A stretch of 32,971 bases of DNA from a virus. Shown here piece after piece: positions 6,375 through 30,123 of this stretch. The notes below the pieces were generated by a model that saw nothing but the letters and a program-made list of their open reading frames with translations, was not told the DNA's origin and searched no databases. How positions within the stretch are numbered: position 1 is the stretch's first letter; each line of letters begins with the position of its first letter. The position numbers were made by a program, and so were the translations under genes. The stretch covers positions 1 to 32,971 of IMG/VR virus record IMGVR_UViG_3300018839_000004; one strand, 5' to 3'.

Positions 6375-6420
6375 GGCAATTGCGTTTTACTGGGGGCAAA
6401 GCAAAGGCAATTGCTACCTG
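6375..6420 (-). other. 5' leader of fourth late unit
   Basis: This 46-base leader lies between the promoter motif and the ATG at 6374. It carries two copies of GGCAATTGC (6375-6383 and 6406-6414), each built around the palindrome GCAATTGC. No clear Shine-Dalgarno sequence is seen. The paired motifs could be an operator or could affect leader folding. Confidence 0.4.
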
Positions 6421-6436
6421 GAGAGTAGGACCAAAA
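6421..6436 (-). promoter_or_regulatory. Late promoter motif, copy A
   Basis: The minus strand reads TTTTGGTCCTACTCTC. The same block recurs at 9003-9020, 14806-14824 and 19170-19188, always in a gap upstream of a late transcription unit. This copy is 46 bp before the ATG at 6374. The TACTCTC part could be a variant of the Bacteroidota -7 element. Confidence 0.65.
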
Positions 6437-6897: not shown

Positions 6898-6938
6898 CAC
6901 CCCACCAGGTGCTGCACGTGGCAGCACCTGGTGGGGTG
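6898..6938 (-). terminator. Strong terminator after large terminase
   Basis: A perfect 18-bp stem (6898-6915 with 6921-6938, loop ACGTG) is followed on the minus strand by TTTGTTTT. It starts 20 bp after the large-terminase stop and ends the small/large terminase unit. Confidence 0.85.
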
Positions 6939-8962: not shown

Positions 8963-9002
8963 TAAAAAGGTGTTTCCCAAAGGTGGCACCGTGCCCAGTT
9001 GC

Positions 9003-9020
9003 GAGAGTAGGACCGAAAGG
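9003..9020 (-). promoter_or_regulatory. Late promoter motif, copy B
   Basis: The minus strand reads CCTTTCGGTCCTACTCTC. It matches copies A, C and D and lies 40 bp before the chosen start of the terminase small subunit, in a non-coding gap. Confidence 0.65.
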
Positions 9021-9892: not shown

Positions 9893-11109
9893 GCGTCGAG
9901 GGTTTTAAGTTTGGTCTCCACCTGCTCCAGCTCGGCCTCCAGTTGGGCCAGCTTCTGCTGTTTGCGCACGTCGTTTGGGTTCTTTTTGAGAGCCCCGCGA
10001 GCTTTGCTCACCTGGCTCCTCAGGTTGTTGCGGTCCTTCGTAAGTCCCTCTTTGTCGGCCGGCGCCTCGGCCGCCGCGGGAGCTGCCGGCTGGTCGGGCA
10101 GCCGGTTGTTTAACAGGATGTACTCCTTTTGGCTGTTGAGCTCATCCAGCTTACGGGCCAGCGTCTCAATATTATCAACCACCTTTTTGCGTTCGGCGTC
10201 CGTGGCCTGGTCGCGGAGGCTGTTGCTCAGCCGGGCTTTTTCCACGTACACCTGGCTGGCCTGCACGCTGAGGGCCTCCAGGGCACTGAGGACCTCCTGG
10301 GTGGGCTCCTGGCCGCTCTTGCTTACCTGCTCCCTAATCTGCTCCACCAGGCCGGGAAACTGCTCACGGGCCTGATTGAGGGCCTGCTGCACCTCCTCAG
10401 ATGCTCCCATCACTTTGCCCGGATCATCTATCAGCAGGTGGCCAGCGCGCTCCTGAGGGCCTCCCGGGGCCTGGATTGAGCCAACAGGTAGGCCGGCCAG
10501 GATGGGGTCGAACTTTTCAAGCGGTCCCCCGGGGTGGAATGCCAGTTGCATATCCCGATCCAGGGCCGCGGCCTCATCAGTCCAAACCTGTTCAATACCC
10601 AAACCGTTGCCGGCATTGCCCGGCTGGGCCGGAGCACCATCCTCAATAACAAAATCCGTGTTGGCGCCGTGCACCTCATCGGCCGGCGTCCTGATGGCCG
10701 GGGGCAAGCCAGAGCCGGGGAGCTGCTCCCCGTTGGCGCCGGCGCCCTCGGCCTGCTCAGTGGTACCATTTACCACCACTCCCTCAGGTCCTGGAGGGAT
10801 GGGCTGGGCCTGCTCTGATCCGGTGGCCCCTGCCTGCTCACCAGGTGCTCCAGTTTCTCCCGTACCTGCTGGCTCCGTGTGGGGGGGGGTGATGCCGGCG
10901 CCGTCGAGGCCGGCCGGCTGCTCATCGGGGAGAGCCGCCACCACTTTCTCCAGTTCATAACGTAGCTTTTGAGTATTGAACTGATTTTGCTTTTTTGAGA
11001 GGGCAGTAAGGAGCCCTTTGTTTGCACAGTGGGGCCTGAGCAGGGCCAGGCCCTGCTCATAATCGGGCGCCTCGTCGAGGAGCCACTGCTGTATTTTTAC
11101 TTTGCTCAT
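9889..11109 (-). CDS. Virion-associated protein: helical head, Pro/Gly linker, coiled coil
   Basis: A 406-residue protein with three parts. Residues 1-60 form a helical domain (KVKIQQWLLDEAPDYEQGLALL ... LRYELEKVV), of a kind I associate with head-region proteins of Bacteroidota phages. Residues about 65-220 are a low-complexity, disordered stretch rich in Pro, Gly, Ala and Glu. Residues about 230-406 are a coiled coil ending in LEAELEQVETKLKTLDA. The open frame extends upstream only through a TTG codon, so I chose the ATG at 11109. A terminator (11177-11205) and a promoter-like pair (11136-11165) lie upstream, so it may head its own sub-unit. The role is inferred, not known. Confidence 0.65.
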   Translation of the reverse strand: MSKVKIQQWLLDEAPDYEQGLALLRPHCANKGLLTALSKKQNQFNTQKLRYELEKVVAALPDEQPAGLDGAGITPPHTEPAGTGETGAPGEQAGATGSEQAQPIPPGPEGVVVNGTTEQAEGAGANGEQLPGSGLPPAIRTPADEVHGANTDFVIEDGAPAQPGNAGNGLGIEQVWTDEAAALDRDMQLAFHPGGPLEKFDPILAGLPVGSIQAPGGPQERAGHLLIDDPGKVMGASEEVQQALNQAREQFPGLVEQIREQVSKSGQEPTQEVLSALEALSVQASQVYVEKARLSNSLRDQATDAERKKVVDNIETLARKLDELNSQKEYILLNNRLPDQPAAPAAAEAPADKEGLTKDRNNLRSQVSKARGALKKNPNDVRKQQKLAQLEAELEQVETKLKTLDA

Positions 11110-11135
11110 GGGGTGCAACAAGGGGTTAACGGTAA

Positions 11136-11165
11136 GCAAGTTACGAACCCGGGCCAGCTACCAAA
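11136..11165 (-). promoter_or_regulatory. Possible host-type (-33/-7) promoter
   Basis: On the minus strand TTTG (11162-11165) is followed after 18 bp by TAACTTGC (11136-11143). This is near the Bacteroidota TTTG-19-TAnnTTTG pattern. It follows a terminator and precedes the gene starting at 11109. Confidence 0.35.
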
Positions 11166-11176
11166 AAGGGCAAAAA

Positions 11177-11205
11177 AAAAGGCACGTCCAATGAACGTAC
11201 CTTTT
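11177..11205 (-). terminator. Terminator downstream of 66-aa gene
   Basis: AAAAGGCACGT (11177-11187) pairs with ACGTACCTTTT (11195-11205) with one mismatch. On the minus strand the stem is followed by a run of T. It may be partial, allowing read-through to the 406-residue gene. Confidence 0.7.
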
Positions 11206-11245
11206 CCCCTTTATTACGCTTAAAAAATGAATACTTTACTTTGGT

Positions 11246-11446
11246 CTAGCTCACCAAATCCTTCACCGGCTGAGGGGCCCGGGGAGCCTTTACGGGCTCC
11301 ACTTTCTCCACGTACCTGCTGCCGCTGTCGAACAGGAATTTGGCTTGCTGCTCGGTGATGCCCACCAGTGCCACGGTTTGATCCTTGATCACTACCTGGC
11401 CCACGCCCTCATGGTTAACTAGGCGGTAATTTTTCAAATTTGCCAT
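11246..11446 (-). CDS. Small hypothetical protein, 66 aa
   Basis: A 66-residue protein in the capsid unit (begins MANLKNYRLVN). It has a compact beta/alpha pattern with VVIKDQTVALVGITEQQAKFLF, then a basic, Pro-rich tail. The middle resembles short modules that fold against a partner, such as head-joining proteins, but I cannot name it. I chose the ATG at 11446 over the GTG one codon upstream. It lies between the tail-tube-like protein and a terminator. Confidence 0.6.
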   Translation of the reverse strand: MANLKNYRLVNHEGVGQVVIKDQTVALVGITEQQAKFLFDSGSRYVEKVEPVKAPRAPQPVKDLVS

Positions 11447-11470
11447 CACTCAAAAGTTACGATATTAAAC

Positions 11471-12175
11471 CTACGGAACAGCTACCACGGGGATTTCTCC
11501 CTCGTAAAAAAACGGCTCGTTGGCCTGTCCTACCTTAAACGTAACGGTGTACCCGTTCTTATCGGTGAACACCTTTCCGCTGGAGTAGTCGGGCGTGCAC
11601 ATCATGCCCCGCTGCATGGTACCACCCACCCGCTTTTGCCCTTTGCCGTCTACTACAATGATTATACACCGTTGGTTAAGCATTGAGTTCATTACTTTGG
11701 CAATTGCCGGGTTAGAGCCCGGGATATAGCAGCTTGCCGTGATTTCCCAAGCCTGGTTGCCAGCCTCACCGATTGCTTTTACGTTGAGGTCTGAAGTATC
11801 TTCAGCAAATTCCCATTTGGCAAACGCTTTGCCAGGCTTTGGCACAATGGCGCCGGTGATCACCATATCCCCCTCCACGGCCGGGGCGGGAATGCTTTGC
11901 ACGTCCACGGCCCGGATCACGTAAAAGGAGTATTGCCCGCCCGGGTTGCTCCCGCAAAATTCGGGAATGCTGCCCACGGGGATACAGATACCCACCATTC
12001 CGCTCATCACCAGCAGGGCCAGCAGCGGGGCGGCCAGGGTGAGGAGCCGCGGGCTGATTTCCACGGAGAAAAACAGCACGATGAGCAGCCCCAGCACCAG
12101 GCAGAGGGCTGCTAATTTTTTATTGAGGGCGCCGGCCAGCAGGCCCGTGCCCAGCACTTTGGTAAGAGTTTTCAC
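11471..12175 (-). CDS. Virion protein with hydrophobic N-terminal extension, 234 aa
   Basis: Residues 1-65 contain two or three hydrophobic helices (KLAALCLVLGLLIVLFF; LLTLAAPLLALLVMSG). Residues 65-234 are a soluble beta-rich domain starting ICIPVGSIPEFCGSNPGG and ending NEPFFYEGEIPVVAVP, resembling tail-tube or head-decoration proteins of Bacteroidota phages. The frame starts with GTG at 12175; an ATG at codon 57 would give a 178-residue soluble form, closer to what I expect of the family. Either the membrane part is a true fusion or the virion protein starts internally. It follows the capsid gene after a hairpin. Confidence 0.65.
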   Translation of the reverse strand: MKTLTKVLGTGLLAGALNKKLAALCLVLGLLIVLFFSVEISPRLLTLAAPLLALLVMSGMVGICIPVGSIPEFCGSNPGGQYSFYVIRAVDVQSIPAPAVEGDMVITGAIVPKPGKAFAKWEFAEDTSDLNVKAIGEAGNQAWEITASCYIPGSNPAIAKVMNSMLNQRCIIIVVDGKGQKRVGGTMQRGMMCTPDYSSGKVFTDKNGYTVTFKVGQANEPFFYEGEIPVVAVP

Positions 12176-12217
12176 AATTGATAGCTGGAATTGAAGGATC
12201 GAGGAGGAGGAGGAAAA

Positions 12218-12248
12218 GGCGCCCCTGGGCAGTCGAGCCAGGGGCGCC
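12218..12248 (-). terminator. Hairpin after capsid gene, partial terminator
   Basis: GGCGCCCCTGG (12218-12228) pairs perfectly with CCAGGGGCGCC (12238-12248). On the minus strand TTTTCC follows. It begins 12 bp after the capsid stop and could lower expression of the genes behind it relative to capsid. Confidence 0.7.
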
Positions 12249-12260
12249 TCACTTTGCCGG

Positions 12261-13223
12261 TTATGCCCGGTTGTTTTGCCAGATATATTCGGGGAACGCG
12301 TAGTTCACGCCGGCGCGCCAATCGCCCAGCATTTTGAGCTCCCGGTTAAACTCCTGGAAGGTGAGCCGGCTCATATCCCCGTTGCCGGCAGCCATGTATT
12401 TGAAATTGTAGCGGGGGGTGATGATGATCCGCTGGGAGCCCTGGAGGCCCTCCTCCACTTCAAACTTGATGTTGGTACCATCAATGGCCTGCTTGGAAAA
12501 CCCGGTATTGTAGGGCAGCGCGCCGTGCGTGCTCCGGTAATCCTGGTTATAGTAGTCCATCAACGTGGGGGAAATGATGCAAACCATATCCCTCATGCGG
12601 AACCGGTCGGGCACCAGGCTCTTTACTGCCTCAATGGCATCCAGGGCATTGGCCGGCGTGATCACCAGGGCAGCCTGGTCCACGATTTGGGTACCCTTGA
12701 TGATGTTGGCGGCAATATCGTCGGCAATGATTTTGAGGAACCCGTGGTACATATCGGCCGGCTCACTGCCGGCAGAGTTGCGCACCCCGCGGTAAAGGGC
12801 CTCCAGTTGGTCGTCCTCCTTCAGTTGGGCCAGGATCAGCTCAATGAACACCTTTTGATAAGGCAAATCATTGATTTTCTCCGGGTTGCGGTTCTCCAGT
12901 TCGCCCAGGTAGGACTTCCAAAGGGCGTCCATGTCCTCCTCATCGAAGGCCAGATCCACCTTGCACTTTTCCACGTAGCCGTAACGGGGCTCGGGCTTCA
13001 CGGCGTCGGCTTTGGGGTCGAAGGTGTTTTTACCACCAGGCTGGGCAATCTTGCTCAGCTTGATTTTGTTGAGCACCACCCGATCCACCACGTCGGGGAT
13101 GAACTGCACGTAACTAAAGAAGCTGCGATCATCCTTAAACACTTGTTTGAGGATTTCGGGGTTTTTAACCACGTGCCGCTTCAGGTCGGCCGGCACGGCG
13201 GTAAAGTCGAGGGACTTGCTCAT
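12261..13223 (-). CDS. Major capsid protein (HK97-fold type)
   Basis: A 320-residue protein of normal size for an HK97-fold capsid subunit. It lies directly behind the protease-scaffold gene, the standard capsid cassette order. An N-terminal region (FTAVPADLKRHVVKNPEILK) is followed by the body. A late segment (ISPTLMDYYNQDYRSTHGAL ... GTNIKFEVEEGLQGSQRIIITP) fits the P-domain/A-domain style of Bacteroidota phage capsids, and the C-terminus ends in WRAGVNYAFPEYIWQNNRA. It is flanked by hairpins at 13271-13289 (upstream) and 12218-12248 (downstream). It should be the most abundant late product. Confidence 0.85.
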   Translation of the reverse strand: MSKSLDFTAVPADLKRHVVKNPEILKQVFKDDRSFFSYVQFIPDVVDRVVLNKIKLSKIAQPGGKNTFDPKADAVKPEPRYGYVEKCKVDLAFDEEDMDALWKSYLGELENRNPEKINDLPYQKVFIELILAQLKEDDQLEALYRGVRNSAGSEPADMYHGFLKIIADDIAANIIKGTQIVDQAALVITPANALDAIEAVKSLVPDRFRMRDMVCIISPTLMDYYNQDYRSTHGALPYNTGFSKQAIDGTNIKFEVEEGLQGSQRIIITPRYNFKYMAAGNGDMSRLTFQEFNRELKMLGDWRAGVNYAFPEYIWQNNRA

Positions 13224-13270
13224 TTTTAAATTGCTCGTTTTGACGTTTTTTTACTACTGAAAAAGGGGGT

Positions 13271-13289
13271 GGCTGCCGGGCCGGCAGCC
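13271..13289 (-). terminator. Hairpin between protease and capsid
   Basis: GGCTGCCGG-G-CCGGCAGCC is a perfect palindromic stem in the 87-bp gap. On the minus strand ACCCCCTTTTTC follows. It may weaken transcription or stabilise the capsid mRNA; the U-run is too distant for a sure terminator. Confidence 0.45.
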
Positions 13290-13310
13290 GGGCCGGGGGT
13301 ACCGGTGGAG

Positions 13311-14762
13311 TTATTTGCCCTTTGCTTTTTTGATGCGTTTTTGTTCTTCCAGGGCTGCGGCGGCTGCCCGTTCGTTGGCGCTGAGCCCTTCCTCACCCTC
13401 ATCCCACTTATTGCTCTCATCATCGGCTCGGGGGTCCACGGTCGAGTGCTCACGGCGCCACTGCTGGAGGGTGGCCAGTTCCTGCCGGGCCTCAGCCAGT
13501 TGGGCGGTGGTGGTGGTGTTGAGGGTGTTGGCCTCAGTGAGCTGCTGCTCCAGCTCGGCCAGGCGTTGATCACGCTGCTCCAGGGCTTGCTCGGCGGCCG
13601 TGAGGCTCTGCTCAGTTACTTCCTGGTTATCTTCGGCAGCCTGGGCGCCGGTTTTATCGGCAGCCTCGGCGCCGGCTTTAAAGCCCAGCAGGGCCGCAAT
13701 GCGGGGAAATTTCATATTGGAAAAGAAAGAGTTTGCAGGAGGGGGGGTGTCAGCTCCGGGGAGGGTCTCCGCGGAGGGTTTGATGGCAACCGCATGGGCT
13801 GGGGCCTGCTCCGTAGCTACGGGCAGGGTGTCATGGATGGCAGAGGGGCCTGCCACGGCCAGCCGGTGGGCCTCGTTCACGGCGTCCTCCAGGGTGCCCA
13901 CGGCATCCACCAGGCCCAGCTTTTTGGCCTCCTGGCCGCTGTATACCTTGCCCGTCCAGGGGTTGGCATCTTTGGCCAGCTTATCCCCGCGGCCCTTTTT
14001 TACCGCGGAAATAAATGTCTCGTGGATGGTGTCGAGCTGTTTGGTGTACTCGGCAATGAGCTCATCGGTAAGGGGCTCCACGCTATTCATGCGGGCCTTG
14101 TCCACGGCTTTGGAGCTTCTCAGGATGGTGATTTTCTGGCCCATCTTTGCCAGGAACTCCTGGGCGTTGGTGTGGGTGGCCAGCACCCCGATACTGCCCA
14201 CGTAGCCGGTGGTGAGGCTGTTGATGTAGAGTTTGGAAGCCTGGGAGGCCACCCAGTACGCCGCGGAGGCCACAAGTCCATCCCCGTAAGCCACAATGGG
14301 CTTTTTGGAGTTGGCCACCACGCGGGCCAGCTCCTCGGTACCGTCAACGGCGCCGCCCGGGCTGTCCACGTCGAGCACAATGCCCGAAATGTTGGGATCT
14401 GCATTAGCCTGCTGGATCATGCTGATCACCTCCTTAGTGCCCAGGGAGCAGTAACCCCCGTTTTTCAGCATCGTACCCTGGAGGGGGATGATGGCCACCT
14501 TTTGGCCGGTCTGGGGGGAGGCTTTGCCGCTGGCAGCCTGGCCGCTGCTGTACTCATCGGAGAGGGATGCCGGCGCCGGCACGGCGTAAAACATTTGCGG
14601 GAGGCCATCCTCCCCGTAGCGTTCACTACGACGGCGCGAAACCTGCCCCAATGCCGGCAGCAGCTCCTGCCCGGCGTGCAACCGGTCCAAAAGCACCGGG
14701 TACACCATTCCAAAGTATTTCGCTTCTAGCAGCCAGGCATTGGTGGCAAGGATTTCGAACAT
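13311..14762 (-). CDS. Prohead protease (S49/ClpP-like) fused to scaffold
   Basis: A 483-residue protein. Residues about 85-300 form an S49 (SppA-like, phage C-protein) serine peptidase: LDVDSPGGAVDG (SPGG at 134-137), then DGLVASAAYW with the likely nucleophile S166, GYVGSIGV, and a candidate catalytic Lys near 218. Residues about 375-483 are a Glu/Gln/Ala-rich coiled coil (ALEQRDQRLAELEQQLTEA), the form of an internal scaffold. The gene thus combines protease and scaffold as in lambda C/Nu3; a separate internal start for scaffold is possible. It is the first gene of the capsid unit, 43 bp downstream of promoter motif C, and precedes the capsid gene. It would cleave scaffold and capsid tails during maturation. 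Confidence 0.88.
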   Translation of the reverse strand: MFEILATNAWLLEAKYFGMVYPVLLDRLHAGQELLPALGQVSRRRSERYGEDGLPQMFYAVPAPASLSDEYSSGQAASGKASPQTGQKVAIIPLQGTMLKNGGYCSLGTKEVISMIQQANADPNISGIVLDVDSPGGAVDGTEELARVVANSKKPIVAYGDGLVASAAYWVASQASKLYINSLTTGYVGSIGVLATHTNAQEFLAKMGQKITILRSSKAVDKARMNSVEPLTDELIAEYTKQLDTIHETFISAVKKGRGDKLAKDANPWTGKVYSGQEAKKLGLVDAVGTLEDAVNEAHRLAVAGPSAIHDTLPVATEQAPAHAVAIKPSAETLPGADTPPPANSFFSNMKFPRIAALLGFKAGAEAADKTGAQAAEDNQEVTEQSLTAAEQALEQRDQRLAELEQQLTEANTLNTTTTAQLAEARQELATLQQWRREHSTVDPRADDESNKWDEGEEGLSANERAAAAALEEQKRIKKAKGK

Positions 14763-14805
14763 AACACCCCTTTTGTTTGCCCAAATTTGGCAGCCTGGGG
14801 AGGGG

Positions 14806-14824
14806 GAGAGTAGGACGTAAAAGG
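14806..14824 (-). promoter_or_regulatory. Late promoter motif, copy C
   Basis: The minus strand reads CCTTTTACGTCCTACTCTC. It lies 43 bp before the protease ATG at 14762 and directly behind the terminator of the preceding unit (14828-14853). Confidence 0.65.
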
Positions 14825-14827
14825 AAA

Positions 14828-14853
14828 GGGCCCCCGGGGTGGTCCGGGAGCCC
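14828..14853 (-). terminator. Terminator of the fibre/lysis unit
   Basis: GGGCTCCCGG and CCGGGGGCCC (minus strand) form a 10-bp stem with one G-T pair and a six-base loop, followed by TTTCCTTTT. It lies 6 bp after the stop at 14860. The T-run merges with promoter motif C. Confidence 0.8.
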
Positions 14854-14859
14854 TCTGGC

Positions 14860-15360
14860 TTACTTTCTGGAGGCTTTGAAATGCTGGGCCATATCGGTGG
14901 GGGCCTTTTTGTAGGCTTCAGCCAGCAGGTGCACCAGGGCCCAGTATTCGGAGCACGTGCGGGGCTTGTCGTAGGTTGGGCCGGCCCACCAGCCCGTGAG
15001 CCGGTACAGGGGATGCCAGAGCACCAGGCTCAGGTAATCATACCCCCCGTTCCACGCGTCCAGGTCCTCCCGGGTGATCACCGTGGCCGGGTCGCACGGC
15101 AGCACCTCATAAACCCGGTCGGGGGAACGCTCCAGCCAAATCTCCCACCGGGTGCTCCGGCGTGCTCTCCGCTTGCCTCCTCCCCTCATTTCCACCACCC
15201 GCACCACGCCCTGCTCATCCACGTGGATGCCGGCCCAGTGGTTCCAGTGGGAGCTGGTGGCCAGCCGGATGATCCAATATACCCAGGTCAGGGGCCGGCT
15301 CCAGTAAGCCGGGTTGTGCACGGCAATTTGCCAGCCGGTCCGAAAGTCTTTGGTTTCCAT
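14860..15360 (-). CDS. Permuted papain-like (NlpC/P60, YiiX-type) enzyme candidate
   Basis: A 166-residue protein. The order of likely catalytic residues, SHWNHWAGI (His41) with VVEM (Glu57) and, much later, TCSEYWALV (Cys136), matches circularly permuted NlpC/P60 hydrolases of the YiiX type, where Cys comes last. Such enzymes cut peptide or amide bonds in cell-wall peptides or act on lipids. The open frame reaches into the previous gene, but the ATG at 15360 lies 4 bp after that gene's stop and is the better start. It is the last gene of the unit that holds the fibre genes, before a terminator. A lysis or DNA-entry role is possible; the family call is by motif only. Confidence 0.6.
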   Translation of the reverse strand: METKDFRTGWQIAVHNPAYWSRPLTWVYWIIRLATSSHWNHWAGIHVDEQGVVRVVEMRGGGKRRARRSTRWEIWLERSPDRVYEVLPCDPATVITREDLDAWNGGYDYLSLVLWHPLYRLTGWWAGPTYDKPRTCSEYWALVHLLAEAYKKAPTDMAQHFKASRK

Positions 15361-15364
15361 CGTT

Positions 15365-15916
15365 TTACCAGTTGTCCCCGTAGACTGCCACAAATGCATC
15401 CGTAACCACAAAGTGATAAGGCTTATCAGAAAGGCCCAATTTTCGCCGGATGCCCTCCTCAATCATCTCCTCAATCCCGGGCCGGGGTTCGGGGTTGAGT
15501 TTTGAAAAATGCCACCAGAGCACGGCCTGGAGCTCTCCCACCGTGCGCTGCACCTCCACGGGCTCCAGCAGCGGGTGGGCATGGTGGGGGTAGGTGTCCC
15601 CGGTTTCGTCGGTAACCATCCAGAACAGGAGGTTTCCGGCCTCATCCCGGGCCTGCCGCATTTCCACCCGGGTGATGGGGGTAAAGGTTTCCGTGCCATC
15701 GGCTGCCACCTGCCGGTGCACGGCCGGCAGCCGGGTGGTATCATCCACCTGCATGGGTTTATACTTGCCCAGGTCTACGGTGGGGCTCATGCCTGGCTGC
15801 TCTACGCGTTCGTGCACGTGGATGAGGATATTGGCCTCCCCATCAAAATAAAGTTTGGCCGGCGAGGCAATAAAGGTGATGGCCTGGCCTTGCTGGGAAA
15901 TCGGTATTTTTATCAT
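15365..15916 (-). CDS. Hypothetical protein of the fibre region, 183 aa
   Basis: A 183-residue soluble protein starting MIKIPISQQGQ. The first half is beta-rich (AITFIASPAKLYFDGEANILIHVHE); a later VGELQAVLWWHFSKLNPEP stretch is helical. The ATG at 15916 overlaps the stop of the LamG gene as ATGA, so I prefer it to the longer frame from 15955. Its place right behind a LamG-type receptor-binding protein suggests a fibre chaperone or accessory virion protein. No family is recognised, so this is inference from neighbours. Confidence 0.6.
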   Translation of the reverse strand: MIKIPISQQGQAITFIASPAKLYFDGEANILIHVHERVEQPGMSPTVDLGKYKPMQVDDTTRLPAVHRQVAADGTETFTPITRVEMRQARDEAGNLLFWMVTDETGDTYPHHAHPLLEPVEVQRTVGELQAVLWWHFSKLNPEPRPGIEEMIEEGIRRKLGLSDKPYHFVVTDAFVAVYGDNW

Positions 15917-16749
15917 AACGTAATGATGGGATTGCGCGTAAAATGGTCGCACCAAGCGGTTTGCCCGCTTTGGGGCTGGCCGCCGGCCGCCACCTGGGCA
16001 TCGGTGTAATTAGTGAGGGAACCGTTTTGAAAAGTGGCAAGGCCCGGGTTGTAGGTGTTGGCGTAATCGTTGACCACCCGGCCGTTTTTTTCATTGAAAA
16101 ACCAATAGGCTTGTATGCTGCTCCAGGTAGATTCGGGAGGTGGGGCGCCGTTGCCGGAGTTGTAAAGGGCCGCCACCTGGGCATCGGTCAAACCCTGGTT
16201 AAAAACGATATAATCATCCAGGTACCCGTCAAGCGAACGGCCCAGCAGGAGGGCGGCCGTGTTGGTCATGTTGGGATCATTGATTACTCCCCCCTGAGGG
16301 TTCAATCGGAGTACGCCATTTACAAATAGCTTATAGGCGCCCGTGTTGCCGTTTGCTCCTGAGAGGCCCCGGGCAATTCCATCCCTGGAATAAACTAAAT
16401 GCACCCACTGATTGGGGGCAATGGTGTTTGATGCGTTTAAATCAAATAACTGATTACCATTGAAAATAACCCGGAAAAATGCCGCTCCCATTGCTGTGTT
16501 GGAGTTGCCGGCAATCAGGAAGTTGATACGTGCCTGAGTCGTAACGCCGGGGTCTTTAATGAGTAGATCATGGTTAAAGGTCACGGCGAGGGGATAGGCC
16601 CAAATGGAAAAGGCAAAATCCCCCACCCCAAAGTTGAATTTGCCGTTTTGGTTGATGCTCACGCTGGTGCTTTGCGACCTGAACAACCGGAGGCAATTCT
16701 CGAATGAGTAGAGGTATTTTGCCCGTTGGTAAACCCTTCTTTTTCTCAT
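15913..16749 (-). CDS. LamG/concanavalin-like adhesin, likely receptor-binding tail protein
   Basis: A 278-residue protein whose residues about 35-235 read as a LamG/laminin-G-like jelly roll: FGVGDFAFSIWAYPL, then PNQWVHLVYSRDG, KLFVNGVL, and GYLDDYIVFNQGLTDAQVAAL, the typical closing strand and helix. These domains bind carbohydrates or proteins and are common at phage tail tips. The last ~45 residues contain WSSIQAYWFFNEKNG and an NYTDAQVAAGG echo of the LTDAQVAAL motif, which may reflect a partial repeat. It follows the 409-residue fibre-type gene by 12 bp. It is a good candidate for host recognition; the ligand cannot be told. Confidence 0.8.
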   Translation of the reverse strand: MRKRRVYQRAKYLYSFENCLRLFRSQSTSVSINQNGKFNFGVGDFAFSIWAYPLAVTFNHDLLIKDPGVTTQARINFLIAGNSNTAMGAAFFRVIFNGNQLFDLNASNTIAPNQWVHLVYSRDGIARGLSGANGNTGAYKLFVNGVLRLNPQGGVINDPNMTNTAALLLGRSLDGYLDDYIVFNQGLTDAQVAALYNSGNGAPPPESTWSSIQAYWFFNEKNGRVVNDYANTYNPGLATFQNGSLTNYTDAQVAAGGQPQSGQTAWCDHFTRNPIITL

Positions 16750-16761
16750 GTTGGCGGCCCG

Positions 16762-17991
16762 TTAGTAAGTGAATTCTACCAGCACGTACCCGCGGTTTTG
16801 CCCCGCTTGAAAGACGACATTGGCCTCAATAGTGTAGTTGAGGGCCTGGGCCGCCGTTAGGGCAGCCACGGCCGCATTCAGGTTAGCCACCCCGGAAACG
16901 GGTGCCCCCCCGTTGATGTGAAAACTAACGGAGGCAATGGTGGCCCCCAGCGTGATGGCTGAGGCTGTTACGCGGCGGTTAAAGACGGTTCCCGCCGTGG
17001 TGGCAAGGCCCGCGTAATCGGTGGCCCACTCCCACCTGAGGCCCTCGGCCGCGTTGGCCACGGCATAGCGGGAGAGCTTGCCAAAGAGTTGGAGAAACGT
17101 ATCCGTGTGATGAGGCTGGCCCGGCAGGTTTACATCCAGGCCCGTGGCCGTTATGCCCCTGACCGTGGCGGCAATACCCTCCATAAACGCCTTTATTTTG
17201 CCAAATGCCTCTTGGATTGAATCCGTTTCCAGCAGCCCCCCCAGCAGATTGCCCAGGCCCGTAAGCCGCTTGCCCAACACGGCCGCCCGGGAGAGCACAA
17301 TGGCCGATAAGGTGCCCGACGCCTCACCCCCCACGGGGGGATCAGCCGGGGCAGTACTCCCCCCGGCAATGAGCACCCACCGGCCTGGGCCCGTGGTGGG
17401 GATGATCACTTCCTCATCATCGGCCACCTGGGCAGAATCCCGGTGGAGGGCAAACAGTTTTTTGAGCCCCTTTACGTAGATGAACCCACGATCCGGCCAG
17501 TCCTGGCTGGCCGTGGTGTCCAGGGCTTTGAGGCTGGCCAGGTCGTGGGTGGGATTGAACACCACCCCACGATCCATTTTGAGCAGGATCTGGCTCATGG
17601 CTGAAAAAATGGCATCGGCCGTAAGGGTGGCGCCGTTGGTGCGCCGGAGAGCCGTATCCGTGTTTGGCAGGTGGCTGGGGGAGAGTTCAAACCAAAAGGC
17701 ATTTTCTGCCGGCACCCTGTTGGCGTTGTCGTTTACCTTGCTCTGCCAGAACTTGCTGCCGTGCGTCACCTGGTCACCGGCCCCGTACACCAGGTTGGAG
17801 GCCCACGGTGCTATGGCATCGGCCTGGTCCTCCGGAAAGGGTATTTTGTCCTCCTGGATGTTCCAGGAGGAAATGATCAGTTTACGGATGATGTCCCGGG
17901 CCTGGGCCGGGGTTATCATTTCGGTGATGTTGTCCTGGAATATCAGATCAGCCAGGGCCAGCAGGGCCTGCCGGTTGAGTTGTTCGCTCAT
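16762..17991 (-). CDS. Tail fibre-like protein with carbohydrate-binding-like module
   Basis: A 409-residue protein. Residues 1-55 are a helical N-terminus likely to attach to the virion. Residues about 65-105 (WASNLVYGAGDQVTHGSKFW ... AFWFEL) have the W-x-Y-x-x-GD-x-V ... W spacing of chitin-binding-type CBM5/12 modules. The rest is Ala/Thr/Gly-rich with beta-strand and helical segments, ending in AGQNRGYVLVEFTY. The gene starts in an ATGA overlap with the 186-residue gene and is followed by the LamG gene. Together these form the receptor-binding end of the phage. The fibre call is inferred from composition and place. Confidence 0.7.
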   Translation of the reverse strand: MSEQLNRQALLALADLIFQDNITEMITPAQARDIIRKLIISSWNIQEDKIPFPEDQADAIAPWASNLVYGAGDQVTHGSKFWQSKVNDNANRVPAENAFWFELSPSHLPNTDTALRRTNGATLTADAIFSAMSQILLKMDRGVVFNPTHDLASLKALDTTASQDWPDRGFIYVKGLKKLFALHRDSAQVADDEEVIIPTTGPGRWVLIAGGSTAPADPPVGGEASGTLSAIVLSRAAVLGKRLTGLGNLLGGLLETDSIQEAFGKIKAFMEGIAATVRGITATGLDVNLPGQPHHTDTFLQLFGKLSRYAVANAAEGLRWEWATDYAGLATTAGTVFNRRVTASAITLGATIASVSFHINGGAPVSGVANLNAAVAALTAAQALNYTIEANVVFQAGQNRGYVLVEFTY

Positions 17992-18548
17992 CGTCTACGG
18001 AAACCAAAGGTGAAACCGGGGTTGAAAACTTTACGGGTGCCGGCCGGGGGCACTTCAAACATTCCGTAAAACAGGGCTTTGTGGCTGCATTCGCCGTTAA
18101 AAGTCAATTGGTGGCCATTTTTGCCACTTGCGCCCTGGCCCGTCTCCAGCTTGTGGGAGAACCTCAGGGGCTGCCGCTTGCTGCCGATCAGCTTGCAAAC
18201 GCCGTTACTGTCCATGTAGAGAGCCAGGCACCGGATGCCGGTTAACCGGTCCATCCAGTGCCCGGCGTCGGGCGTGTCACGGGGCACCCAGAGGGAAAGG
18301 CTTTGTTTGAGAAAGTCCCCGTGCTCAGTTTCCTGGTGCTGCTCCTCGTACCCCCCGGCGTCGGGTGCAAAGACAATATCCAGGTAATTGCTCCCGTCCA
18401 CCAGTTCCAGCTCCTGGAGCACGTTGTGGCGGGAGCTGGGGGGCATGGCCACCAGGTTCTCAGCCGGCAGGATACGCACGTAATCCAGGCCGCCCAAAAC
18501 GCCCCCGCACACGCCGTACAGGCCGGTGATGCCCCCCAGGTCGATCAT
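17988..18548 (-). CDS. Conserved hypothetical late protein, 186 aa
   Basis: A 186-residue, probably soluble protein. It begins MIDLGGITGLYGVCGGVLGG; later parts include LELVDGSNYLDIVFAPDAGG, FLKQSLSLWVPRDTPDAGHW and a C-terminus rich in aromatic and basic residues (KVFNPGFTFGFRRR). It looks like Bacteroidota phage structural proteins encoded between tail and fibre genes. Both ends overlap neighbours by four bases, so it is translated with the transpeptidase-like gene upstream and the fibre-like gene downstream. No catalytic motif is seen, and the exact role is unknown. Confidence 0.65.
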   Translation of the reverse strand: MIDLGGITGLYGVCGGVLGGLDYVRILPAENLVAMPPSSRHNVLQELELVDGSNYLDIVFAPDAGGYEEQHQETEHGDFLKQSLSLWVPRDTPDAGHWMDRLTGIRCLALYMDSNGVCKLIGSKRQPLRFSHKLETGQGASGKNGHQLTFNGECSHKALFYGMFEVPPAGTRKVFNPGFTFGFRRR

Positions 18549-19141
18549 GCCAGGTCTGCCTCCTCCAGCAGGGTATAACTGAACCGGTTGCGCCGTAGCT
18601 TTACGGAGGCCTGGCAGAGGGCAATTACTTTGCCGTAGCTCACCGGGTTTTGCACAACCTGGCAGCCGGCAGAGTAGGGGCCCACCAGTTCCAGCTCCAG
18701 GGTGGAGTGGGCCCGGTGGAACTCGATCCCGAACAAACCGGTAACCTCCTTTAGGGGGCCATCCAGCAGGGTGGTGTTTTTGTTGTTGTCCCTCCAGCCG
18801 CTCACCGGCGCCACCTGGTCCAGGGCCACGTACTTGCCTTTATGTGAGCCCAGGGCCCACAGGTCCAGGTGCTGGCCCGGCTTTAGGATGAACGTGCCGG
18901 CAGGGTCCAGGGGCTTTAACAGGTAGTTTGCCCCCGGGTCGGTGGTGCCTTTGTAAATTGAAAAAATTTGCTTGCCGGCATCATCCTTACAGGCAATGAC
19001 AAATAAATCATCGAACCGGTTAGCCTTTCGCTCCTTACTCCGAATGCCGATGATGTTTAAGTGATACGGGCGCCCATCATCAAACCACTGGTAGCCCTTC
19101 TTTGTGAGCACTTTCTGGATTCTTTCTAGCGTTGGTTTCAT
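18545..19141 (-). CDS. L,D-transpeptidase-like cell-wall enzyme, endolysin candidate
   Basis: A 198-residue protein of a type often seen in Bacteroidota phages. An N-terminal YHLNIIGIRSKERKANRFDD and a YKGTTDPG motif (about residues 63-70) precede a C-terminal catalytic-like set: IEFHRAHS (His142) and YSAGCQVV (Ser157, Cys160). This order His ... S-x-G-C resembles the YkuD L,D-transpeptidase active site, so a peptidoglycan-acting role is likely. There is no signal peptide, so export would need a holin. I chose the ATG at 19141: the longer frame would begin upstream of promoter motif D (19170-19188). It is the first gene of the first late unit. Confidence 0.7.
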   Translation of the reverse strand: MKPTLERIQKVLTKKGYQWFDDGRPYHLNIIGIRSKERKANRFDDLFVIACKDDAGKQIFSIYKGTTDPGANYLLKPLDPAGTFILKPGQHLDLWALGSHKGKYVALDQVAPVSGWRDNNKNTTLLDGPLKEVTGLFGIEFHRAHSTLELELVGPYSAGCQVVQNPVSYGKVIALCQASVKLRRNRFSYTLLEEADLA

Positions 19142-19169
19142 GGCTCGAATGTAAGCCGGGCCAGGGCCG

Positions 19170-19188
19170 GAAAGTAGGACCGGAAAGG
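19170..19188 (-). promoter_or_regulatory. Late promoter motif, copy D
   Basis: The minus strand reads CCCTTTCCGGTCCTACTTTC. It lies 28 bp before the ATG at 19141, between that gene and the terminator of the early operon. It is the only copy with TTTC instead of CTC and the only one with iterons beside it. Confidence 0.65.
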
Positions 19189-19203
19189 GGGGGGTATAAA
19201 CGT

Positions 19204-19240
19204 AAAAAAGTGCCTCCCTGCTTTGGAAAGGCACTTTTTT
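19204..19240. terminator. Bidirectional terminator between early and late genes
   Basis: AAAAAAGTGCCT (19204-19215) pairs perfectly with AGGCACTTTTTT (19229-19240). Both strands end in six T, so it can stop transcription from either side. On the minus strand it closes the early operon just before promoter motif D. Confidence 0.85.
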
Positions 19241-19242
19241 GG

Positions 19243-19320
19243 TGGACCCATTCGGGAGTTTTCCGGACCTAAACGGGAATTAATGGACCCATTCGGGAGA
19301 TTCCTGGACCCATTCGGGAG
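19243..19320. repeat. Four phased iterons, consensus TGGACCCATTCGGGAG
   Basis: Three exact copies of TGGACCCATTCGGGAG start at 19243, 19284 and 19305. A diverged copy (CGGACCTAAACGGGAA) is at 19264-19279. Start-to-start spacings are 21, 20 and 21 bp, about two helical turns, so bound proteins would face the same side. They lie upstream of promoter motif D and directly downstream of the gene at 19330-19791. Confidence 0.85.
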
Positions 19321-19329
19321 GTTTTTATT

Positions 19330-19791
19330 TTAGGCGGCCTGCCTGGCCAGGTCGCGGGCAATTTTCTCCTTTGCATCCCTCCAGACTTTGCGCAACGTCT
19401 CCAGGTCCATGTGGTCGGGGTTGAGCTGGTACCGGTCGTAAAACGTGTTGAGAGCATGGTTCTCATTACCGGTAATTTCGATCTGGCCCTTCACCCAGAG
19501 GATGAACTGCTGGCGAAAAAACTTGTCGAGGAAATTGCCCATTGCCCGGGCACTCTCGGGGGTGATGGTTTTGTACTTCAGGCTTTTGGGGAGGGTCACC
19601 TTCAGGGTGGTGAGGCCCTGGGTGTTGAGCTTTGGGGCGTCGAGCCGGTAAGGGCATTTCTCTGCATTCATTAGCAGCAGGGCGCCCATAAAGCTGGAGG
19701 AGTGGATGGCAATGGGCTCAGGGCCAAACTCGGCCAGCATGAAGGCCTTTACGTAGGGAGCCACAGGGATCTCCTTTGTATTCTTATTCAT
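19330..19791 (-). CDS. Last early gene, 153 aa; candidate iteron-binding late regulator
   Basis: A 153-residue protein starting MNKNTKEIPVAPYVKAFML. The middle has LTTLKVTLPKSLKYKTITPESARAMGNFLDKF, and the basic helical C-terminus (LETLRKVWRDAKEKIARDLA) could contact DNA. No family is recognised. I chose the ATG at 19791 over an upstream frame. It stands alone at the end of the early operon: 136 bp of non-coding DNA precede it and four iterons and a late promoter lie just behind it. That placing is typical of late-gene activators, but a replication or accessory role is equally compatible with the sequence. Confidence 0.65.
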   Translation of the reverse strand: MNKNTKEIPVAPYVKAFMLAEFGPEPIAIHSSSFMGALLLMNAEKCPYRLDAPKLNTQGLTTLKVTLPKSLKYKTITPESARAMGNFLDKFFRQQFILWVKGQIEITGNENHALNTFYDRYQLNPDHMDLETLRKVWRDAKEKIARDLARQAA

Positions 19792-19927
19792 AGTTTTAAT
19801 TGCTCGTATGGTCCTAATAAATAGACAGGTGAGCAATTTACCGCCCCTACCCTACTCAAAATTGTACAAATTATACAGGTATCTCACACGTATGATTTTG
19901 GGTCCGAAAAATTGGACCATCACCAGG
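19792..19927. other. Non-coding gap with GGTCC/GGACC inverted repeat
   Basis: This 136-bp AT-richer gap lies upstream of the gene at 19330-19791. It contains GGGTCC (19900-19905) and TGGACC (19913-19918), an inverted pair sharing the GGACC core of the iterons at 19243-19320. A lone GGTCC lies near 19813. The pair could be an operator for the same protein (autoregulation). Confidence 0.4.
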
Positions 19928-20299
19928 TTACCCACTTACCCCTTGGGCTCCTTTCCTCGCCCGCGTGTGGCTGGAAAGGTGGCCGTAGTACCTGGCAGCC
20001 TCAGTAAACTGCCGGCCGCACTCGGTGCACGTGAACCCAGGGCTTTGTGGGGGCGGTTCCGCCGATGGCGCCGGCGCCGGCGCTGCCGGCACGTCAGGGC
20101 CCTTGATCAGGTGCTGTATGTTGAGGTAATCCACCACCGGTACAAGCAACCGATTACAGTGGGGGATCATTTCGCGTACGTAGCCGTTGGCCTGCTGCAC
20201 TTCGCCGGCTGCCATTGCAGCTAGATAGAGGCCACGGATGCCCTCCAGCAGGTTAAGGCGCATTTGTCGTTCTGAGTTCATGAATTGAGTTTGGCCCAT
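19928..20299 (-). CDS. Small protein with a classical C2H2 zinc finger
   Basis: A 123-residue protein. Residues 1-65 are helical, 66-88 a Pro/Ala-rich linker, and residues 89-115 a full C2H2 finger: C91-x2-C94-x12-H107-x3-H111 (FTCTECGRQF ... GHLSSHTR), with the finger's aromatic and Leu core positions in place. The spacing is the classical eukaryotic type, not the shorter Ros type of bacteria. The start at 20299 has a strong ribosome site (GGAGGAGGTG); a second ATG at 20281 overlaps the upstream stop. It sits in the early operon and probably binds DNA or protein; its target is unknown. Confidence 0.75.
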   Translation of the reverse strand: MGQTQFMNSERQMRLNLLEGIRGLYLAAMAAGEVQQANGYVREMIPHCNRLLVPVVDYLNIQHLIKGPDVPAAPAPAPSAEPPPQSPGFTCTECGRQFTEAARYYGHLSSHTRARKGAQGVSG

Positions 20300-20553
20300 C
20301 CTTCACCTCCTCCGGAAACGGTTTGATGTACTGCCCGCATCCGTTCAAGGAACTGCTGGGCATTGTCCTCCCCATAGTCGTGGAGAGCTCCCTGGGCCAC
20401 CCACTCATCCCTGAAACTTAACTTTAACTCAACCTGAATCCCTTTTATACGGGTGGTCTGAATCAACTCATAAAAATCCTCATCATCATTGTACTCCACC
20501 ACCACCAGCACCTGGTGTTCGGAGAACGTGAATAGTTTGGCAAAGTGATTCAT
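20278..20553 (-). CDS. Small early protein, 91 aa, unknown
   Basis: An acidic 91-residue protein. A beta-rich first half (FTFSEHQVLVVVEYNDDEDF) is followed by a helical end (NAQQFLERMRAVHQTVSGGG). It is translationally coupled to the gene before it (TGATG at 20551-20555) and overlaps the zinc-finger gene behind it. No motif or family is recognised. Confidence 0.6.
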   Translation of the reverse strand: MNHFAKLFTFSEHQVLVVVEYNDDEDFYELIQTTRIKGIQVELKLSFRDEWVAQGALHDYGEDNAQQFLERMRAVHQTVSGGGEGWAKLNS

Positions 20554-20738
20554 CAGGCACCTCCCTCTGGGTTTGGTTTGTCCACCTGGGCCTCCAGGAT
20601 GGCATCAATCATGCGTTTCCAGCCAATATCCACCAAGCGGATTTTTACCTCCCCATCCGGCCGCAGCACCGTGATTGTCTCCCCTTTCACCAATGCCTCA
20701 AAATGCTCCCCATTGAGTAAAACCCGGATCTCACTCAT
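20553..20738 (-). CDS. Small early protein, 61 aa, unknown
   Basis: A 61-residue protein with a short beta sheet pattern (IRVLLNGEHFEALVKGETITVL) and one helix (GWKRMIDAILEAQVD). It overlaps the upstream gene by 8 bp and shares TGATG with the gene after it, so it belongs to the same operon. Size and place fit small anti-host or regulatory phage proteins; nothing more can be said. Confidence 0.55.
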   Translation of the reverse strand: MSEIRVLLNGEHFEALVKGETITVLRPDGEVKIRLVDIGWKRMIDAILEAQVDKPNPEGGA

Positions 20739-21021
20739 GGTTCCTCCCTTCCTGCTCCGGGCTGATAATGCGCAGTTCCATGCCGGTGCTCTGGAGAAAA
20801 ATCTCCTGCACCTGGCTGATGGTCTCGGCAGTAAGTTCCACGGGGCCCACCTGCTCCTCCCGAATCTTGATGGTGGCTTGAAGTGCCGGCCGCTGAAATA
20901 CTTGATTTGGAATCTCCAGGTTTATCAGCATGGCCACCTCATCATCCGTGAGGTGGGGCTTTGTTTTGGTGGTTTTGATCCGGCCGGATTCACTCACCAC
21001 TAGGTAGAACTTTGTTTTCAT
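20731..21021 (-). CDS. Small early protein, 96 aa, unknown
   Basis: A 96-residue protein (MKTKFYLVVSESGRIKTTKTKP). A strand-rich first part, then LTDDEVAMLINLEIPNQVF and a helical LTAETISQVQEIFLQ. Its ATG overlaps the upstream stop as ATGA. The pattern of short strands and a KTKP segment recalls small phage early proteins in Bacteroidota, with no assigned activity. Confidence 0.55.
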   Translation of the reverse strand: MKTKFYLVVSESGRIKTTKTKPHLTDDEVAMLINLEIPNQVFQRPALQATIKIREEQVGPVELTAETISQVQEIFLQSTGMELRIISPEQEGRNHE

Positions 21022-21428
21022 CGGAGGGGGTTAATCGGGTGAATCATGGGTAACGATTGATCAACTTTGCCCAGGGACGTGCGTAGTAAAATTGAGTCCC
21101 AGGGGTGGTAAAGGAGTATCTCCCGCAGAGCCGTCCACTCGGCAACGGTGAGGGTGACCTGGCCAGACGTTTGCCGCTTCGCACAGAGGGCTTTGTACCT
21201 CTGATTGAGTTTTTTACGAATAGCGTGCACCACCAGCAAGGTGATGGCACCATGCAAGAGTTTAGGGTGCTGATGGGCCGCCTTTAGGGTAAGAGCCCGG
21301 TCCATTTCCTGGAACTCCTGAGTCGAGAACTTTACCGAGTGGCGGGTGGCCAGGTATTGTATGTTGAGCAGGAGCTGCCCCTGCTCCTCGGTCGTAAGGT
21401 GGAAATTCGTGCCTTGCTTTACATCCAT
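21018..21428 (-). CDS. Early protein, 136 aa, unknown
   Basis: A 136-residue, helix-rich basic protein. It begins MDVKQGTNFHLTTEEQGQLL, and the middle holds AAHQHPKLLHGAITLLVVHAIRKKLNQRY, an amphipathic stretch. The C-terminus ends in RTSLGKVDQSLPMIHPINPL. The gene overlaps both neighbours, 10 bp with the gene before it and an ATGA with the one after. It is encoded soon after the replication initiator, so a role in replication or its control is possible. No family is recognised. Confidence 0.55.
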   Translation of the reverse strand: MDVKQGTNFHLTTEEQGQLLLNIQYLATRHSVKFSTQEFQEMDRALTLKAAHQHPKLLHGAITLLVVHAIRKKLNQRYKALCAKRQTSGQVTLTVAEWTALREILLYHPWDSILLRTSLGKVDQSLPMIHPINPLR

Positions 21429-21688
21429 ACCCCATTTTGAAACTTCATTATCACATCCGTTTTGCTGGGCTCCACCCGGTTGGGGTAGTGGTTTTTGTAG
21501 ATCACGGCCTCCTCCACCCGGTCCACCCGTTTGGCCACGTTGTTTTTGTGCCGCTTGATCTCCAGGGCCAGGCTGTACTCACCCAGCCGGTTTTTCCCTA
21601 GTCCAAAGAAGGGCACCGTGTTGCCATCCACGTAAGTGACTTTCATAACCGTTTTGGCCTTAACTTTCATTTCGTCGGTGATATTCAT
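21419..21688 (-). CDS. Small early protein, 89 aa, unknown
   Basis: An 89-residue basic protein (MNITDEMKVKAKTVMKVTYVDG, then LALEIKRHKNNVAKRVDRVEEAV). Its ATG overlaps the stop of the replication initiator (ATGA at 21685-21688), so the two are translated together. Location suggests help to the initiator, for example as a helicase loader, but it is much shorter than known loaders. No conserved motif is seen. Confidence 0.55.
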   Translation of the reverse strand: MNITDEMKVKAKTVMKVTYVDGNTVPFFGLGKNRLGEYSLALEIKRHKNNVAKRVDRVEEAVIYKNHYPNRVEPSKTDVIMKFQNGVWM

Positions 21689-23100
21689 GCGGTTGCAGTG
21701 TGTTGAGTGGGAGAATTGATAACAGTGGCACCAGTGCCCGGCTCCGGCTGTTCGCCGGCCTGGGTACAGTAAGCGAGGAAGGCGTTGAGGGCCTGCTCAT
21801 CACGTAGTTTCGAGATCCGGACGTGCCAATACTGGTAGAGCTGGAGCCGGCTCATGCTGCTACCGGCTTTGAGGCCCCGCGGCGCCTGTCCGGTTTCCAT
21901 CGAGGCCCGGGCTTTCTGGAGCTCCAGGCTTACGTGGTACTGTTGCCTGAGCAGCCTGGTGCGGAGCCACCACTGGTAAGTGCGTACAAAGCCGTGTTCG
22001 AACTTCGAATCAAAGTATTTCACCGGGTGGGGTATAAACCGGTCGGGGGACCGGTTCACGTATTGCCAGGCCAGTGTGATCCGGTCCTGGCAATTGTGAA
22101 AATATTGGTGCCACTCCTGATCCGTCCACTCCTGCGAATCAACCGGCCGGAATGAAGCAAATACATGGCGGTAAATGGTGTTTTTAGCCCTTCGCTCCTC
22201 CTCCGGGCTAAACGCATAGTGCTGGTACAGAGTCTTTTTGGCAAACTCCCATAGCAAAACCACGTAGGTGAGGTACTTCTGAGGGGCAGGCCCGGAACCA
22301 GACGACGCCTTGCCGGTGGCTAGTCGTTGGGGCGTTTCGTTGTCCTCTTTCGAGGATAACGGGTCTGGCTCCGGTTGCTTGCTTCCCATATCTTCAGTTG
22401 CGCCGGCCGGCCCGCCGCCCGCCCCGCGCAACCTCTGTTCTTGCTGTTCCTGCGGCAAATTTTCCTTCAAAAATGTTTGGGGATTCGCCAAAAGAGGGCT
22501 TGCTTCCCATGTTCCTGCCCCTATGTTCCTGGGCTGTTCTTGCTGTTCATGCGCCGGCGCCGCCAGGCCCGGCCGATGCCTTATATCCTCCTCCCCCTCG
22601 GCCACGCACGTGTCCACATCGCTATTAGTATTACCCCCTGTTCTTGTAGATTTAGGCGGTAAATTTTCCTCAGGAGGGGCCAAAATAAGCGAAATTGCCG
22701 GTTTTTGATCTTTCAAAAAATCGGTGGGGCACGGTTTAGCGAGTAGAATCCACTTAGGTATCAACAGCTCATAGGGGTTCGTGCGGCCCCTGAACCGTTT
22801 GCGGATCAGCCCGGCCTCCTGGAGCCGGAGCAGCCGGTTGTATGCCGTTTTTTCGCTGATCGTTCCTTTGCTGAGCCGGGTCCAATCACAGTTGGAGGCA
22901 TAGAGTGGTAGCCATTCATCACCCTCGGGGCTCACGCCATAGGTATACACCCGGCTGGCCCGAACAGCTATCCACCGGATCATATTTACCTGACCCTCAC
23001 GAATTTTGTTTGTTAAATTAACGTTCCAGTTCAGATCTTTGACGTGCTTTTCGAAGTTGGTGGCCACGATGTCCGGGACAATAGCGCGCTTTTTACTCAT
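21685..23100 (-). CDS. Replication initiator-like protein (winged helix, lambda O-like layout)
   Basis: A 471-residue protein. Residues about 35-125 contain a winged helix-turn-helix (MIRWIAVRASRVYTYG ... GTISEKTAYNRLLRLQEAGLIRKR), the form used by phage O/DnaD-type initiators to bind the origin. Residues about 140-270 are low complexity and poorly constrained (ENLP, EQQEQ repeats). Residues about 275-430 are a helical domain with WEFAKKTLYQHYAFSPEEERRAK. It is the largest early gene and precedes a row of small genes. No polymerase or helicase is present, so the phage would use host replication proteins. Repeats in its middle (22436-22670) may hold the origin. Confidence 0.7.
   Translation of the reverse strand: MSKKRAIVPDIVATNFEKHVKDLNWNVNLTNKIREGQVNMIRWIAVRASRVYTYGVSPEGDEWLPLYASNCDWTRLSKGTISEKTAYNRLLRLQEAGLIRKRFRGRTNPYELLIPKWILLAKPCPTDFLKDQKPAISLILAPPEENLPPKSTRTGGNTNSDVDTCVAEGEEDIRHRPGLAAPAHEQQEQPRNIGAGTWEASPLLANPQTFLKENLPQEQQEQRLRGAGGGPAGATEDMGSKQPEPDPLSSKEDNETPQRLATGKASSGSGPAPQKYLTYVVLLWEFAKKTLYQHYAFSPEEERRAKNTIYRHVFASFRPVDSQEWTDQEWHQYFHNCQDRITLAWQYVNRSPDRFIPHPVKYFDSKFEHGFVRTYQWWLRTRLLRQQYHVSLELQKARASMETGQAPRGLKAGSSMSRLQLYQYWHVRISKLRDEQALNAFLAYCTQAGEQPEPGTGATVINSPTQHTATA
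22436..22670. repeat. Repeats inside initiator gene, possible origin
   Basis: TGTTCTTGCTGTTC occurs at 22436-22449 and 22535-22548, with a partial TGTTCTTG at 22639-22646. AAATTTTCCT occurs at 22457-22466 and 22661-22670. They lie in the low-complexity part of the gene in an AT-richer patch, as in the lambda O gene. They also encode EQQEQ and ENLP peptide repeats, so coding repetition could explain them. Confidence 0.35.
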
Positions 23101-29793: not shown

Positions 29794-30123
29794 ATGGGCG
29801 CTGTAGCCGGAATTTTAGCCTTTATTTTAGTTGCCATGCTGTATTTCCTGCCCACCATCCTGGGCTGGAATAAGCGTAACGTGGTTGCCATCTTCATTCT
29901 CAACCTGTTGCTCGGCTGGTCGGTGATCGGTTGGATTGTGGCCCTCATCTGGGCACTGGCAAAGGACTCCACCACCACCGTGGTGGTAAATAACAACAAC
30001 GGCGCCGGCAACGGTACCGGCCAGGTAACCGATGAGCTGACCAGGCTTGACGGTCTCCGGCAGCGGGGGGTAATCAATGATGGGGAGTTTGATCTCCAGA
30101 AAAAGCGGCTCCTGGGCGTTTAA
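29794..30123 (+). CDS. Superinfection immunity protein with SHOCT domain
   Basis: A 109-residue membrane protein. Two hydrophobic helices (about residues 4-24 and 30-54) carry the hallmark YFLPTILGWNKRN and IFILNLLLGWSVIGWIVALIWAL of the superinfection immunity (Imm_superinfect, T4 Imm-like) family. A polar Asn/Gly linker leads to a C-terminal SHOCT module (LTRLDGLRQRGVINDGEFDLQKKRLL, residues about 82-107). In the inner membrane it would block DNA entry by related phages. It stands next to the integrase on the lysogeny strand and ends before a strong terminator, as expected for a gene expressed from the prophage. The family call is confident, the phage-exclusion role inferred. Confidence 0.8.
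   Translation: MGAVAGILAFILVAMLYFLPTILGWNKRNVVAIFILNLLLGWSVIGWIVALIWALAKDSTTTVVVNNNNGAGNGTGQVTDELTRLDGLRQRGVINDGEFDLQKKRLLGV

Follow-up and report, generated by a model that had tools for sequence, protein, structure and literature searches.

The repeat array and its setting

The window analysed here is a linear IMG/VR virus record of 32,971 bp (IMGVR_UViG_3300018839_000004), in which almost every gene runs leftward. Read along the coding strand, the stop codon of gene 19330-19791 is followed by four iterons, a hairpin, late promoter motif D and an endolysin-like gene that begins at 19141 (Table 1). Exact copies of the 16-bp word TGGACCCATTCGGGAG start at 19243, 19284 and 19305; the fourth copy, CGGACCTAAACGGGAA, is diverged and occupies 19264-19279. 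The start-to-start spacings are 21, 20 and 21 bp. With up to three mismatches allowed, TGGACCCATTCGGGAG has four matches in the window, namely the three exact copies and an unrelated coding match at 4886; none of 100 shuffles gave four matches (shuffle mean 0.42). The four phased copies of the original prediction are thus confirmed well above chance, and so is their position beside motif D only, as the other late motifs at 6421, 9003 and 14806 have no such array. Across IMG/VR the exact iteron word was found in 25 stretches, with a single match in each and no arrays, and we take these matches as chance. A terminase search of IMG/VR returned one sibling contig (L008), which ends short of the array; its positions 11080-15325 add about 4.2 kb of phage past the left end of the window, including a fifth late promoter. 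No close relative spans the array, and a four-copy array was absent from every relative examined.

Table 1. Features of the early/late boundary and the late promoters (positions in the window)
Feature	Position	Strand	Description
Gene 19330-19791	19330..19791	-	conserved 153-aa early/late-boundary protein (PW family), proposed late regulator
Inverted repeat	19901..19918		GGTCC-N8-GGACC, a possible operator for autoregulation, upstream of gene 19330-19791
Iteron 1	19305..19320	-	exact; minus-strand core CCCGAATGGGTCCA; closest to the stop codon of gene 19330-19791
Iteron 2	19284..19299	-	exact
Iteron 3	19264..19279	-	diverged; minus-strand TCCCGTTTAGGTCC; top promoter-like window site outside the training set
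Iteron 4	19243..19258	-	exact
Terminator hairpin	19204..19240		12-bp perfect arms, A/T runs at flanks; between iterons and promoter D
Late promoter D	19146..19181	-	GGTCCTAC (19181-19174), 20 bp, -7-like TACATTCG (19153-19146); next-gene ATG at 19141
First late gene	18545..19141	-	endolysin-like (PHROG 33083, PHROG 3000)
Late promoter C	14782..14817	-	CGTCCTAC, 20 bp, CAAATTTG
Late promoter B	8978..9014	-	GGTCCTAC, 21 bp, CACCTTTG
Late promoter A	6397..6432	-	GGTCCTAC, 20 bp, TTGCTTTG
Late promoter E	sibling contig L008, outside the window		CATCTTCG

Three other features of the window were recorded in passing. A 21-nt inverted repeat (16276-16296 and 30061-30081, 90% complementary) pairs an arm within the tail-side region with one close to a serine recombinase gene (30545-31159), and these arms are possible inversion sites. 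A perfect 18-bp inverted repeat with a 5-nt loop (6898-6938) lies directly past the end of the terminase gene, and a late-region gene (5659-6093) reads, from its translation only, like an N6-adenine methyltransferase with the motif NPPYG.

Motif D lies about 60-130 bp downstream of the array. The last iteron and the D site are 67 bp apart, or about 6.4 helical turns, which leaves the array in phase internally and out of phase with promoter D; an action of the array on promoter D through helical phase is therefore unsupported.

The repeats are transcribed, between a stop codon and a terminator, and a 3-bp CCC/GGG hairpin is possible within each exact copy, as might be expected of an RNA element in the early transcript's 3' untranslated region. 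However, folding of the iteron stretch is not unusual (z 0.23), iteron 3 breaks the mini-hairpin yet keeps the GGTCC core, and there was no Rfam match, which makes an RNA element highly improbable.

Late promoters of the GTCCT class

The late motifs also emerged independently of the original prediction, as members of one repeat family (6421, 9003, 14806 and 19170). Each reads GTCCTAC on the coding strand and occupies the -33 position, in place of the TTG/TTTG box of Bacteroidota sigma-type promoters, which is absent from motif D and its siblings. Near-matches to the -7 box TAnnTTTG (four to five of six positions) follow 20 bp downstream in A, C, D and E and 21 bp downstream in B. The motifs called late promoters in the original prediction are thus -33 elements, each paired with a -7-like box. 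Start codons lie a few bases past the -7 box in D (window 19139-19153) and E (L008 14927 onward), from which we infer that late messages there are probably leaderless or nearly so.

The same arrangement recurs in our comparison set, which comprised Polaribacter phage Leef_1, 'Microcystis' phage Mea-Yong924-1 and about 80 terminase relatives from IMG/VR. Among unique late-strand GTCCTTT, GTCCTAT or GTCCTAC sites, 92 of 171 carried TAnnTTTG at a spacing of 20, with 0-3 at any other spacing, and the opposite-strand control gave 2 of 123. When the word was relaxed to GTCCT, 102 sites in the approximately 80 terminase relatives had TAnnTTTG at spacing 20, compared with 0-5 elsewhere. GTCCC-N20-TAnnTTTG accounted for 15 sites, counts for GTCCA and GTCCG as -33 words were near background in the relatives, and a T followed GTCC in 82% of the promoters.

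When bacterial and archaeal genomes were scanned for TTTTGTCCTTT-N20-TAnnTTTG, most of the 80 stretches listed were from Bacteroidota. We also drew 148 Bacteroidota genomes regardless of the pattern and set aside one that was already known (G049); in the remaining 147 the promoter pattern showed no excess over a reversed-pattern control. The hosts thus apparently do not use the GTCCT promoter, which favours a phage factor. Bacteroidota housekeeping promoters (-33 TTG, -7 TAnnTTTG) share the -7 box and a similar -33 position 20 bp upstream, whereas the phage promoters have GTCCT as the -33 word, are clustered in phage late regions and are not enriched in unselected host genomes. The GTCCT-type late promoter, common to many Bacteroidota phages, is apparently undescribed.

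Two of the phages showed features of separate interest. Microcystis phage Mea-Yong924-1 is syntenic with this Bacteroidota phage group and has GTCCTTT-N20 promoters, and it may actually infect a Bacteroidota bacterium instead of Microcystis. Another relative (L045) carries seven copies of an interspersed element, GAGAGTGGCAGCYGGCCTCMGTTAMCCCTGCCGAAA, at 13736-21517.

The iterons carry a CCnnTTTnGGTCC-like core that is common to the late promoters. The pattern GGAC..[AT]{3}.GG, which we composed after the sites had been seen, has nine matches in the window: four promoters, four iterons and one coding site. We also trained a position weight matrix of 14 positions on promoters A-E only and scored about 65,900 window positions on both strands. 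Iteron 3 ranked third, on par with the sites used for training; the exact iterons, all three at rank 66, were a moderate match within the top 0.1%; the best score observed in the iteron stretch was reached by none of 2000 dinucleotide shuffles. The copy described as diverged does differ from the exact copies, and it is also the one most similar to the promoters. All four iterons lack a -7 box at promoter spacing (scores of two to three of six) and have A or G, rather than the T of the promoters, after GTCC. The iterons are thus not promoters, and recognition by the factor that reads the promoters would be at best partial.

The shared core bears on two other readings of the array. Iterons bound by a replication initiator, the alternative in the original prediction, would resemble this array in their tandem direct repeats and helical spacing, and a possible replication gene (21685-23100) is common to the window and one relative (G039). 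Yet there is no DnaA box in the window and no AT-rich unwinding stretch beside the array (the array region is 46-52% AT), cumulative GC skew has a maximum, not a minimum, at 19-20 kb, relatives have no comparable array at this place, and the core recurs in the late promoters. Although the tests are weak, they speak against an origin, which we consider very unlikely. Alternatively, the array might serve as a roadblock or terminator aid that keeps early transcription out of the late region, with late activation independent of it. Its location, after the stop codon of the last early gene and before a strong terminator, is suited to this role, but the terminator looks sufficient by itself and the core shared with the promoters would be left unexplained; taken as a full account, this is quite unlikely. 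It is compatible, as a sub-mechanism, with the array being a set of operators.

Gene 19330-19791 and its family

The product of gene 19330-19791 had no informative sequence match in Pfam, PHROGs or the PDB. IMG/VR contained no close relatives of this protein, the endolysin-like protein or the major capsid protein, and neither the phage collection nor a single-protein genome scan held a close relative of the 19330-19791 product. More distant members were linked by tblastn via a bridging homolog from one relative (G029). About 30 terminase relatives carry such a homolog, which in most cases maps no more than about 1.4 kb from the first late promoter. Of 11 family matches in 49 bacterial genomes that the promoter-pattern scan had picked out, 9 share contig and strand with promoter sites and lie at or near their front, a closer search placed family matches at three further promoter clusters, and in prophages the family gene is upstream of GTCCT promoters on the same strand. 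One prophage (G167) of the unselected Bacteroidota genomes, without a match to TGTCCTTT, was chosen by the family HMM alone, and GTCC promoters were predicted beforehand on its strand; GTCCTAA/GTCCTAT-N20 sites are present on that strand at 26317, 25749, 17703 and 13607. The family gene thus lies at the early/late boundary and co-occurs with late promoters, as expected of a late activator. For the remaining early proteins of the window, matches were confined to one relative (G039), but distant homologs were possibly missed, so the role of regulator could also fall to a host factor or to a different early protein.

GTCC sites also recur behind the family gene. A site is located within 70 nt past its stop codon in seven of nine relatives of the closer subfamily, mostly without a -7 box (P ~3e-7 from local word frequencies, in a test devised after the pattern was seen), and in the window four GTCC sites follow the stop codon, three of them within 70 nt. 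Upstream of the family gene, the relatives have no excess of GTCC sites (7 observed, 5.2 expected), which confines the argument for autoregulation to the inverted repeat of the window (19901-19918).

Many relatives have phage-specific clusters of 7-mers in both orientations, spaced by about 8-10 bp, 100-500 bp upstream of the family gene (L073, G040, L048, L009, L036, L056 and others), with words such as GTTCAAC, TGTGGAA and GATTACA. We rejected these clusters as homologs of the iterons on account of their two orientations and their place beside the integrase of Leef_1; they may be attP arm sites. A regex test for integrases neighbouring the clusters found none, even where an integrase is visible. 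That such short repeats lie directly upstream of the family gene in many relatives, and after the annotated integrase gene in Leef_1, could suggest that the array too consists of integrase arm-type sites or another recombination site. But the window integrase (28433-29611) is 9 kb distant, and the iterons have a single orientation, a 20-21 bp spacing and a position on the opposite side of the gene, which leaves this reading barely credible.

A confident AlphaFold2 model of the 19330-19791 product built with 24 homologs (pLDDT 89.8, pTM 0.82) predicts a beta-alpha-alpha-beta-alpha order followed by C-terminal helices, and the Leef_1 homolog matches this model at TM 0.81. The top Foldseek matches in the PDB are F relaxosome chains, which from chain length we take to be TraY, at a non-significant E of 2.2; annotated ribbon-helix-helix viral proteins scored E 1.4-2.5, and no ribbon-helix-helix family was among the Pfam matches of the product. 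A DNA-binding fold is plausible on the basis of the model, and the product is a predicted beta-alpha-alpha repeat protein that could be of the tandem ribbon-helix-helix type. TraY of the F plasmid holds a ribbon-helix-helix fold within one polypeptide and binds DNA as a train of monomers (PMC12117103). The predicted order of elements and the identity of the top structural matches are points of likeness to TraY, whereas the match is not significant in sequence or structure (E ~2) and the 19330-19791 product has extra C-terminal helices.

A candidate late switch

We propose that the four iterons together form an amplified array of operators for a late-gene regulator of the phage, probably the 19330-19791 product. 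We put the probability of this reading at roughly one half, since none of the close relatives extends across the array and the iterons depart from the promoters at a conserved position. The cooperative binding of a regulator suggested by the phasing gains indirect support from the core common to the iterons and all late promoters and from the conserved boundary family that adjoins the array.

The iterons could instead be operators of another DNA-binding protein, for example a repressor or the C2H2 zinc-finger-like product of the next early gene (19928-20299), with the GGTCC core partly coincidental. The weak zinc-finger match of that product, the modest rank of the exact copies on the promoter matrix and the failure of GTCCA to serve as a -33 element elsewhere would all fit. 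Against this, the score of iteron 3 resembles that of a genuine promoter, matches across the relatives were absent for every other early protein of the window, and GTCC sites recur after the same gene in the relatives; we regard operators of another protein as unlikely.

If the operator array belongs to the 19330-19791 product, this conserved boundary protein would build up as early expression ends and bind cooperatively to the four phased iterons that follow its own gene. It would also occupy the GTCCT -33 boxes of promoters A-E, and host RNA polymerase would thereby be able to work from promoters without the usual -33 TTG. In this scheme the array may play one of three roles that are equally compatible with the sequence: it could concentrate the regulator locally at the first late promoter, serve as a buffer and so set the threshold for the late switch, or block read-through from the early operon jointly with the terminator. 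More tentatively, gene 19330-19791 may represent an undescribed family of late regulators in Bacteroidota phages, possibly of the tandem ribbon-helix-helix type, that reads GTCCT 20 bp upstream of TAnnTTTG instead of the host's -33 recognition, with the array tuning the switch.

Phage Mu has several late operons with their own promoters and a common activator word, and the gene for its activator C adjoins the first late operon (PMC4461284). The multi-promoter late set with a shared word and the activator-like gene at the first late operon are thus common to both phages, whereas the protein family, the site and the -7 box differ. We know of no operator array beside the activator gene of Mu.

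For late-gene switching in Bacteroidota phages, we found no published account in the open-access literature. The promoter class, the candidate regulator family and the operator array make such a switch directly testable, and cultured phages such as Polaribacter phage Leef_1, in which a family member and GTCCT promoters are present, can be used for this. GTCCT promoters would also offer a sequence handle for late operons in uncultured Bacteroidota phages, and the system is a possible phage-specific transcription switch for Bacteroidota genetics.
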